A stretch of DNA of 64,000 bases, taken from Thalassobaculum sp. OXR-137 (lineage in GTDB: Bacteria; Pseudomonadota; Alphaproteobacteria; Thalassobaculales; Thalassobaculaceae). Of the stretch, positions 45,263-48,481 are shown piece by piece. The notes below the pieces were generated by a model. The model saw only the letters and a program-made list of their open reading frames with translations, did not search any database and was not told where the DNA came from. The stretch's first letter is position 1. Every line of letters starts with the position of its first letter. The stretch is taken from positions 5,126,501 to 5,190,500 of the forward strand of contig NZ_CP139715.1 in assembly GCF_034377285.1 (NCBI RefSeq). Direction: 5' to 3'. Position numbers and translations under genes: made by a program.

Positions 45263-45952
45263 ATGGATACGTCAGCCCCCTCTCCCTCCACCGCCCCTGC
45301 CGGGTTCGATGCCCTGATGGCTGTCGAGGCGCCCGCCGGGGCGATGGACGCCCCCGCCGCCCGCCGCAACGCCAGGCCGCTGTTCGACGTGCTGCGCCAG
45401 GAACTTCCCGCGACGGGGACGGTGCTCGAGGTCGGATCGGGCACCGGACACCATGCCGCCGCCTTCGCGCGCGACCTGCATCCGGTGCGTTGGCTGCCGA
45501 CCGAAAACACCCCGGAGCGGCGGGCGAGTATCGAGGCCTGGAGCGCCTTCCTGCCCGCCGACGGCCCGCGCCCGCTGGCACCCCGCGCACTCGACGCCTC
45601 GCTCTCGGCCGAGGAATGGCCGGTGGCGGACTGCGCGCCGTTCGACGGCATGGTGAGCGTCAACGTGATCCACATCGCGCCCTGGGCCGTGGCTCGCGGC
45701 CTCCTGGCGGGCGCGGCGCGCTGGCTGAGACCGGGCGCGCCGCTGGTTCTCTACGGACCGTTCCATCGCGACGGCCGGTCCATGAGCCCCGGCAACACCG
45801 CGTTCGACGCCGACCTGCGGCGTCAGGACCCGGACTGGGGCATCCGGGACCTGGAACGCGAGGTCCTGCCCTTGGCGGCGGCGTGCGGCCTGAAGCTGGC
45901 CGCCGTGCACACGATGCCGGCGAACAACCTTTGCGTCGTGCTGCGGAACTGA
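45263..45952 (+). CDS. DUF938 SAM-dependent methyltransferase
   Basis: A 229-residue DUF938 protein. Motif I is VLEVGSGTGHHAAAFA (residues 54-69). Other family signatures are PAARRNARPLFDVLRQELP, LPTENTPERRASIEAW and MVSVNVIHIAPWAVARGLLAGAARWLRPGAPLVLYGPF, then SPGNTAFDADLRRQDPDWGIRDLE. The substrate of the family is not known to me. Cytoplasmic, single gene, divergent from the TerB-like gene. Confidence 0.9.
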   Translation: MDTSAPSPSTAPAGFDALMAVEAPAGAMDAPAARRNARPLFDVLRQELPATGTVLEVGSGTGHHAAAFARDLHPVRWLPTENTPERRASIEAWSAFLPADGPRPLAPRALDASLSAEEWPVADCAPFDGMVSVNVIHIAPWAVARGLLAGAARWLRPGAPLVLYGPFHRDGRSMSPGNTAFDADLRRQDPDWGIRDLEREVLPLAAACGLKLAAVHTMPANNLCVVLRN

Positions 45953-46153: not shown

Positions 46154-47284
46154 ATGAAATTCTATGACTGGATGAGCCGGCTTCCTCTGCCGCGCAACTA
46201 TCTTGTGAAGATTCTGGTGGTCAGTTTCATCGGGGTTCATATCCCCATGATTGGTGCGGTTACTTACATCCTGCTCTCCGCCGACATCGCCCTCTCCGAC
46301 ACGATGGGCGTTCTGATCGCCCTACTGATCGCCACCGTGCTGGGAACCGTCGCCACCATGGCGATGCTCTACCTTCTGCTCGCGCCGATCACCCGTGCGG
46401 CCACCGCCCTGCGCGCCTACCTGAATGAGCGCAAGATCCCGTCGCTGCCGACGCGCTACGACGACGAAGCCGGCATCCTGCTCGCCAATGTGCAGGAGAC
46501 GGTGACCCGGCTCGACATGGCCCTGGACACCGCGCGCGCCCAGCGCGAGGAAGCGGTCCGCGGCCACCGCAGCAAATTCCAGGTTCTGGCCGGAATGAGC
46601 CACGACCTGCGCACGCCGCTGAACCATGTGATCGGCTTCGCCGAGGTGATGACGACCGAAGCCCTCGGCCCGCTCGGCAGCCACCGCTACCGCGACTATG
46701 CCAGCGGCATCCGCGACAGTGGCGAAGATCTGCTGACCACCCTGCAGACCATTCTGGACCTGAGCGCGCACGAAGCCGATCCGGACTCCCGCGACCTGGA
46801 CCCGGCGGGCGTCGACCTGGCAGGCGCGGTGGATCAGGCGGTACGGCTGACCCATTTCCACGCGGAACGCTGCGGAACCGTCATCCACATGACCGTTCCC
46901 AGCAACGCCGACGCGGCCGTGGTGACCTCGGAACGCTCCTTGAAGCAGATCGTCCTGCACGCGCTGCAGGTGGCGCTTGGCACCAGTCCGACCGCCACGC
47001 GGATCGACGTTTCGGTTGCCGAGACGATCGACCACGCCAGCCTGACGGTCGTCAGCGATCTACCCTGGACCCTGGGAGACGTGCCGCCCGAATTGGACGA
47101 CGGTGCCGGGCCGGAGGACTTCCCCTCCTCGACCCCGGCCGCCCTGCGGCTGTCCCTGGTGAACTCGCTGGCCGCCGGCGCCGGCGCGACGGTTCAGGTC
47201 GGCAACGCCGCTGGGGGCGCCCGGTCGTTGACCATCACCTTCCGCAAGGCGGAACGGAAGCGCGGCGCGTCCCAGGCCGCCTGA
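46154..47284 (+). CDS. Membrane histidine kinase-like protein with degenerate ATPase domain
   Basis: A 376-residue protein with two N-terminal membrane helices (~18-42 and ~50-78), a short HAMP-like stretch and a normal dimerisation/phosphoacceptor helix: His150 in LAGMSHDLRTPLNHVIGFAEVM. The catalytic ATP domain is eroded. The N-box position of the essential Asn reads Val273 (LHALQVALGT). The G1 box has DLPWTLGD instead of DxGxG. The G2 region (STPAALRLSLVNSLA) lacks its glycines. So it probably cannot phosphorylate itself, but His150 could accept a phosphate from another protein, as ChpT-like phosphotransferases do. No response regulator is adjacent. A frame-intact gene of ordinary composition. 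Confidence 0.85.
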   Translation: MKFYDWMSRLPLPRNYLVKILVVSFIGVHIPMIGAVTYILLSADIALSDTMGVLIALLIATVLGTVATMAMLYLLLAPITRAATALRAYLNERKIPSLPTRYDDEAGILLANVQETVTRLDMALDTARAQREEAVRGHRSKFQVLAGMSHDLRTPLNHVIGFAEVMTTEALGPLGSHRYRDYASGIRDSGEDLLTTLQTILDLSAHEADPDSRDLDPAGVDLAGAVDQAVRLTHFHAERCGTVIHMTVPSNADAAVVTSERSLKQIVLHALQVALGTSPTATRIDVSVAETIDHASLTVVSDLPWTLGDVPPELDDGAGPEDFPSSTPAALRLSLVNSLAAGAGATVQVGNAAGGARSLTITFRKAERKRGASQAA

Positions 47285-47290
47285 CGGCGG

Positions 47291-48481
47291 TCAGGCGCCC
47301 TCGCCCACCACGCGCACCAGGGCGTCGATCTCCCGCTCCAGCGTGATGTAATGGACGCTGGCCCGAACCGCCGTGGCGATCCCGCGGCGGTCGTATCCCA
47401 CCCGCGCGCCGCTGTCGCCGGAGACGCTGACGTTGATGCCGTGGTCCTTGAGGCGGCGCTTGATGGCGTCCGCCTCCTCGCCGCGCTTGCGGAAGGTGAC
47501 GATGCCGCATTTCTCGGCACCCTCGTCCAGTACCTCCACGCCGTCGAGGCCGGATAGACGGTCGCGGAGCTGCTGGGCTAGCGGCTGGACCCGGTCGCGG
47601 ATCGCCTCCAGCCCCCAACCCAGCGCGTAGTCGATGGCCACGCCCAGGGCCGCCTTGCCGGCGAAATGGCACTCCCAGTTCTCGAACCGCCGGGCGTCGG
47701 CGCGGACCACGTATTCCCGCTCGTTGACCAGTTCGGCCGCGTGCTGGTCCAACAGCGGCGGATCCAGACGCTCGATCCAGTCGCCGCGCACGTAGAGAAA
47801 CCCGGTGCCGCGTGGGCCGCGCAGGTACTTCCGCCCGGTTGCCGACAGAAAATCGCAGCCGATCTCGGCCACATCCAAGGGGATCTGTCCGGCCGACTGG
47901 CAGGCATCCAGCAGATAGGGCACGCCGTGCTTGCCGGCCACCCTGCCGACCTCGGCCGCCGGATTGACCAGGCCGCCACCGGTGGGCACATGGCTGATCG
48001 AGATCAGCTTCACCCGGTCGTCCACCATGCGGTCCAGGGCGGCCACGTCGATCTGGCCGTGGTTGTCGTTCGGCACGATCGCCACCTCGCAGCCGGTATG
48101 CTTGGCCCTGTGCAGATAGGCGATCATGTTCGAGCCGTATTCGGACTCCGTCGTCAAGATGCGGTCGCCCTTGCCCAGATCCAGCGCATAAAACGCCATG
48201 TCCCAGGCCCGGGTGGCGTTCTCCACGAAGGCGACCTCGTCGCGGCTGCAGTTCAGCAGCCGGGCGGTGGCGTCGTAGAAGTTCTCCAGCTTGTCCTGGT
48301 GCCGGTCGGCGGTCTCGTAGCCGCCGCGGAACTCCTCCTCGCGCTGCCAGCCGATCAGCGCGTCGGCGACCGGGATCGGCATCAGCGAGGAACCGGCGTG
48401 GTTCAGGTGGACGATCCCCGCGCAGCCCCGGGTCTCGTGCCGGGCCCGCTCGACATCGATAGGCGTTGATTTCGTGGACAT
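47291..48481 (-). CDS. Class V aminotransferase / cysteine desulfurase-like PLP enzyme
   Basis: A 396-residue PLP enzyme of the aminotransferase V group. Landmarks: IVHLNHAGSSLMP at the N-terminus, VENATRAWDMAFYALDL, SISHVPTGGGLVNPAAE, YLLDACQSAGQIPLDV with the PLP Asp, and Lys in SATGRKYLRGPRGTGFLYV (~218), which forms the Schiff base. Relatives include isopenicillin N epimerase-like proteins and lyases acting on cysteine conjugates. I cannot assign a substrate. It lacks the flexible active-site loop with catalytic Cys expected of a NifS/IscS desulfurase. Convergent with the kinase-like gene (6-base gap). Confidence 0.85.
   Translation of the reverse strand: MSTKSTPIDVERARHETRGCAGIVHLNHAGSSLMPIPVADALIGWQREEEFRGGYETADRHQDKLENFYDATARLLNCSRDEVAFVENATRAWDMAFYALDLGKGDRILTTESEYGSNMIAYLHRAKHTGCEVAIVPNDNHGQIDVAALDRMVDDRVKLISISHVPTGGGLVNPAAEVGRVAGKHGVPYLLDACQSAGQIPLDVAEIGCDFLSATGRKYLRGPRGTGFLYVRGDWIERLDPPLLDQHAAELVNEREYVVRADARRFENWECHFAGKAALGVAIDYALGWGLEAIRDRVQPLAQQLRDRLSGLDGVEVLDEGAEKCGIVTFRKRGEEADAIKRRLKDHGINVSVSGDSGARVGYDRRGIATAVRASVHYITLEREIDALVRVVGEGA

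Follow-up and report, generated by a model that had tools for sequence, protein, structure and literature searches.

What is left for a histidine kinase to do when its phosphoacceptor is intact and its ATP site has eroded? This question was raised by one gene of the window, the whole stretch of 64,000 nucleotides analysed here. Its open reading frame, 46154..47284 on the + strand, is uninterrupted from ATG to TGA, and the encoded protein of 376 aa (the window protein) consists of a two-helix membrane module, a linker, a HisKA (DHp) domain and a degenerate CA domain.

The phosphoacceptor and the ATP site

The DHp domain (aa 131-210, 46544..46783, +) was delimited by Pfam, family comparison and a structural model. 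In the translated frame its H-box reads SHDLRTPLN, with H150, D151, R153, T154 and N157 all present, and the intact HDLRTP context in which a preliminary description of this DNA had placed His150 (codon 46601..46603, +) was borne out. The Pfam HisKA model scored 47.1 bits (cut-off 26.9), and HATPase_c scored 14.9 bits, below its cut-off of 26.4. No Hpt domain (PF01627) was listed among the Pfam matches of the protein up to E 1.

For the CA domain (aa 211-376, 46784..47281, +) a kinase-type fold is predicted, and the ATP motifs are gone. In the N-box remnant (aa 265-276, 46946..46981, +), the two positions held by Asn in functional kinases are occupied by His269 and Val273. The G1 region, S301-D302-L303-P304, has no glycine and only an Asp left (remnant at aa 302-304, 47057..47065, +); Asp302 falls in the G1 Asp column by profile, and one column further by MAFFT. 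The G2 remnant (aa 327-333, 47132..47152, +), whose region reads P-A-A-L-R-L, is likewise devoid of glycine. The preliminary description had named Val273 at the N-box and the missing G1 and G2 glycines; we confirmed both, and found the other N-box Asn to be lost as well. It had also considered that intact ATP motifs might lie in another reading of the gene. A six-frame motif scan of 46154-47400 ruled this out: no ATP motif was found except one in-frame DxGxG (DDGAG, aa 315), which we read as chance since it comes after the DVP motif, the wrong place for G1, and is missing in the closest homologue.

The other HisKA proteins of the genome served as a control. The genome has 58 HisKA matches, and the 57 besides the window protein were aligned to a profile of functional kinases and scored for seven ATP-site residues (N-box Asn, D.G.G, G.G.G). 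All seven were kept at 52 loci, six at three and five at one, and the last locus, L181, shows no CA domain. At least five residues are thus kept at 56 of the 57 loci, and the window protein retains one of seven, short of the ATP site of an active HisKA kinase, with the HisKA domain and its phosphoacceptor His in place. A related-locus search of genome contigs gave just one ordinary kinase, L034. L181 (G000:C1:4334752-4338931) is a 244-aa ORF with the HisKA H-box region at its C-terminus and an N-terminal part that looks GAF-like by eye; judged by its sequence, it is a candidate for a second ATP-independent DHp protein in the same genome. DivL carries Tyr in place of His. The DivL-like L150 (G000:C1:1976746-1976949 region) also has Tyr instead of the phosphoacceptor His, with its CA motifs intact (7/7 ATP-site residues), whereas the window family has kept the His and lost the ATP site.

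Structure prediction of the C-terminal domain, proposed in the preliminary description as a check, suggested that a kinase-type CA fold persists despite the lost motifs. The full model, computed from 22 sequences (the window protein and relatives) with an alignment of ordinary kinases that may favour the kinase fold, had a mean pLDDT of 77.8, with much of the CA domain near 90 and the stretch 301-330 at 58-71. It placed helices at 16-42 and 47-92 in the membrane module, where its confidence is low to middling. A CA-only model made without alignment was of low confidence (pLDDT 52.9, pTM 0.49), though helices and strands follow one another much as they do in the full model. The fold matches were histidine kinases, and RetS (E about 1e-10, Foldseek) and DivL (4q20, Z 18.1) were among them, tied with ordinary kinases. 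ChpT was not among the 50 matches listed by VIA-align, which is uninformative on the fold. A predicted fold that is shared with kinases shows no function.

Relatives and the divergence of their domains

A search of 61 genomes gave near-full-length relatives in G003 (67% and 46%) and G050 (43%). With the N-terminal region as profile, 7/385 genomes of the class matched, G000 included, and order-wide searches gave no new carrier (2/36, 1/17, 1/2, 2/3, 1/9 and 1/1 genomes matched). A second draw from the class (388 genomes, E up to 0.1), in which 29 genomes matched, brought in G574, as well as G517 with a different architecture; 21 of these 29 were weaker matches (E 1.5e-5 or worse), kept outside the family count. 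The family totals 11 proteins from 10 organisms, all of them full-length open frames of 375-390 aa, and its distribution is patchy and spread over several orders. The Pelagovum pacificum member (L050, 15565-16722, +) lies on a 41-kb plasmid, where it directly follows the replication initiator gene; sugar transporter, UDP-galactopyranose mutase and glycosyltransferase genes are found on this plasmid too. Carriage by viruses was rejected, as the membrane module was not matched in two pattern scans of viral contigs. G001 and G005 (1.5 Mb, one contig, 99% completeness), both listed in the same genus, had no match to the window protein and are possibly reduced symbionts; the other genomes of that genus are of 4.7-5.6 Mb and gave 23 or more matches.

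The His, Arg, Thr (H+4) and Pro of the H-box are present in 11/11 members, and the residue after the His is acidic in 10/11. The exception is G003b, a paralogue in G003 (L032, 7625-8764, +), whose box reads SHKIRTPLN, with Lys following His. The second N-box Asn is gone in all 11 members, and the first survives in G050 alone. By profile alignment, 0-2 of the seven ATP-site residues are left per member, but four in G050; this alignment ends before G2 in G075, G068 and G293, so that the counts of 0-2 are slightly low for some. MAFFT placed one G2 glycine in G075, G068, G293, G130 and G323, five of the nine members aligned. Eight members were scanned with Pfam; all eight passed the HisKA cut-off, and two (G050 and G130) passed that of HATPase_c. 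Loss of the ATP site is a family trait. The preliminary description, which had asked for conservation of the loss in relatives, had seen a protein that keeps the phosphoacceptor and two membrane helices and lacks the ATP site; this picture holds for the window protein, which has two N-terminal hydrophobic stretches by Kyte-Doolittle, and it is common to the 11 members found.

In a tree of the DHp only, built from the 57 rows that filled over 70 of the model's first 100 columns, the 11 members formed a single clade among the 57 tips, with a support of 0.975. Mean pairwise identity within the family was 0.52 in the membrane module, 0.52 in the DHp and 0.25 in the CA domain; the genome's own paralogues (52 rows) gave 0.34 in the DHp and 0.30 in the CA domain. 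At DHp identities of 0.4-0.5, 0.5-0.6 and 0.6-0.7, bands that hold 53 of the 55 family pairs, the CA identity of the family was 0.23, 0.25 and 0.27, and that of 72 other kinases with a CA domain was 0.33, 0.36 and 0.39 (5th percentiles 0.26, 0.27 and 0.33); the pairs in this comparison are not independent, and kinases of the L032 locus and rows of at most 200 aligned columns were omitted. The two closest family pairs showed no excess divergence of the CA domain (0.56 vs 0.55 in band 0.7-0.9, and 0.92 vs a single pair at 0.74 above 0.9). At medium DHp divergence, the CA domain of the family is thus more divergent than that of ordinary kinases, and the ATP part appears to have been freed while the phosphoacceptor part was held.

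The membrane module and the genomic setting

The N-terminal membrane module (aa 1-100, 46154..46453, +) has no Pfam match, HAMP included, in the window protein and seven relatives, and the Pelagovum family record is annotated as HAMP-containing. Its GVHIP motif (aa 27-31, 46232..46246, +) places His29 within the first hydrophobic stretch, by Kyte-Doolittle and by the model, and Gly27, His29 and Pro31 (GxHxP) are invariant across 18 aligned carriers. The same two-helix module and linker were found in front of other outputs, where a GGDEF or GGDEF-EAL region stands in place of the degenerate kinase core. Module and linker occur on a GGDEF protein encoded by a Gemmobacter plasmid and on GGDEF-EAL proteins from G517 and from a plasmid of Comamonadaceae; module-bearing GGDEF proteins in four more genomes were assigned by motif only (GGDEF or GGEEF). 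A module search of 396 genomes matched 45, of which 39 were weaker partial matches (best E 2.5e-8) outside the carrier set. Besides G000, five matches were near full length; four have a GGDEF or GGEEF motif, and the fifth is G829. The GGDEF and GGDEF-EAL loci (L089 7669-9348, -; L141 6001-6936, +; L142 5950-7704, +; L200-L203) belong to several proteobacteria. The module may sense a signal. In the open literature searched, by titles and the starts of abstracts, we found no paper naming this family or the GxHxP module, which is a candidate for an undescribed input domain of diguanylate cyclases.

On one side of the gene stands that of a DUF938 methyltransferase (45263-45952, +) and on the other that of a class V aminotransferase (47291-48481, -), with genes for TerB, CarD and S4 domains farther away. 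A Pfam scan of the eight neighbouring ORFs gave DUF938, TerB, CarD, class V aminotransferase, S4 and a helicase, with two ORFs without match, and found nothing phyR-like and no kinase. None of these neighbours suggests a signalling operon. Among relatives, the G574 member adjoins a complete HisKA-HATPase kinase gene. G003b adjoins genes for an OmpR-type regulator, a hybrid kinase with Hpt and a PAS-MCP protein, a setting seen at that single locus. A scan of 30 neighbours at eight relatives' loci, which did not include the G293 locus (a close copy of that of G068), found no neighbour common to loci of different orders. A fixed operon partner was thus rejected, and the lack of shared neighbours is as expected for a protein acting in trans.

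Proposed function, alternatives and known systems

The most likely reading, to which we give roughly even chances, is that the window protein is a membrane-anchored, ATP-independent DHp phosphotransferase or phosphatase for response regulators, like PhyT but of another kinase class. Having no ATP site, the protein could not phosphorylate itself. Response regulators phosphorylated by other kinases would meet, on a dimer, His150 together with Asp151 and Thr154; His150 would accept the phosphoryl group, to hand it to a second regulator or lose it by hydrolysis. The choice between transfer and hydrolysis would be set, via a HAMP-like linker, by the two-helix module with its intramembrane His29. 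In this scheme we infer the absence of ATP binding, the dimer, the phosphotransfer or phosphatase chemistry and the role of the module alike.

The best NCBIfam matches of the window protein were PdhS and DivJ, and over ten members the models with the lowest E among those matching all ten were PdhS, TorS and DivJ. PdhS and DivJ are kinases of the DivK network, and we take this similarity of the DHp to suggest DivK- or PleD-like partners. Regulators of that kind are a weak guess from sequence likeness, since this DHp type is common to many kinases.

Several observations count against phosphotransfer. Acid-base chemistry should suffer from the Lys after the His in G003b, a purely structural role of the DHp would also be consistent with an invariant H-box, the closest two family pairs are without excess CA divergence, and G050 and G130 pass the HATPase_c cut-off. 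Functional kinases, moreover, are often aided by ADP or ATP when they act as phosphatases; such help would be missing in the window protein.

The best-surviving alternative, possible if rather unlikely in our judgement, is a non-catalytic pseudokinase, whose DHp would pair with an active kinase, lie next to one, or bind a regulator (DivK, for example), and would act on this partner allosterically with His150 unphosphorylated, in the way of DivL on CckA and RetS on GacS. The fold matches to RetS and DivL agree with it, tied as they are with ordinary kinases, and so do PdhS and DivJ as the best named kinases by sequence and the acidic residue lost in G003b. Further agreement comes from ChrS, a CA-dead pseudokinase which, according to PMC9491836, acts with a conserved His that is not used or needed and appeared to have lost phosphatase function; this unused His speaks against phosphotransfer in our case as well. 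Still, the window family holds the His and the Thr at H+4 in 11/11 members, whereas the DivL-like L150 has Tyr, and DivL itself can do without its phosphorylation residue (as cited in PMC9491836).

That the protein is half of a heterodimer, in which an active kinase subunit would trans-phosphorylate His150 and the complex would work as a single kinase that has gained a membrane input, we regard as quite improbable. The DHp-CA profile of the family is close to that of nine functional kinases (hhalign 100%, E 3.3e-51), and the G574 and G003b members do have kinase genes beside them, the latter with its OmpR-type regulator; however, no kinase was found among the scanned neighbours at the other six relatives' loci or at the window, and heterodimers of HisKA kinases are rare. 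Highly improbable is a kinase gene decaying into a pseudogene, or a kinase still binding ATP through an unusual site: the fast CA divergence, the two HATPase_c matches and the four residues of G050 would suit it, but all 11 frames are open at full length across several orders, and the membrane module and DHp are of high identity.

To return to the phosphotransferase reading, its widest form is that of a new HisKA-derived membrane phosphotransferase family, independent of ChpT, PhyT and Spo0B, with input from a His-containing intramembrane module shared with c-di-GMP enzymes; this we put forward tentatively, as rather unlikely in so wide a form. If it were true, one kind of membrane signal would set phosphorelay flow in the window family and the c-di-GMP level in the GGDEF carriers. 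The step from kinase to phosphotransferase by loss of the ATP site would have been taken once more, here by an ordinary HisKA kinase and with a tie to the membrane, and the family, which has no large sensor domain, would offer a simple case of membrane steering of a DHp between phosphotransfer and phosphatase activity.

DivL and RetS resemble the window family as regulators on a HisKA kinase core, with structures among the fold matches. ChpT is also a phosphotransferase from a degenerated histidine kinase, as stated in PMC5898713. The preliminary description had called the window protein analogous to but distinct from ChpT, and the distinction is supported. ChpT (PF10090) is encoded separately in 8/8 carrier genomes searched (a set without G574 and Pelagovum), which led us to reject the protein as a stand-in for ChpT, and PF10090 was absent from the matches listed (E up to 1) of the window protein and seven relatives. 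Against eight ChpT, the family DHp-CA profile reached 39.5% (E 3.1e-4), much farther than from functional kinases, and the ChpT boxes of 8 ORFs (CHDLVGP, CHDLVSP or FHDLIGP) have no Thr at H+4, unlike those of all 11 family members.

The nearest precedent is PhyT (formerly PhyP) of the general stress response of Sphingomonas melonis. According to PMC5898713, PhyT is membrane-anchored with a degenerated ATPase domain, and moves phosphoryl from SdrG to PhyR via a conserved His. A membrane anchor, descent from a kinase, a degenerated ATPase domain and a conserved DHp His are thus common to PhyT and the window protein. The PhyT box is HRxxN, the motif of HWE/HisKA_2 kinases (PMC5898713), whereas that of the window protein is the HisKA-type SHDLRTPLN; PhyT, as described there, has a putative periplasmic sensor domain and is encoded at the phyR locus, whereas the two helices of the window protein are just a few residues apart, and its gene, by its eight neighbouring ORFs, is not at such a locus. 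The other box and the phyR location of PhyT show that the window protein is not a PhyT. In the preliminary description, ATP-site loss beside a kept phosphoacceptor and the separation from ChpT have stood, and its reading as a membrane phosphotransfer protein is plausible by analogy with the precedent set by PhyT.
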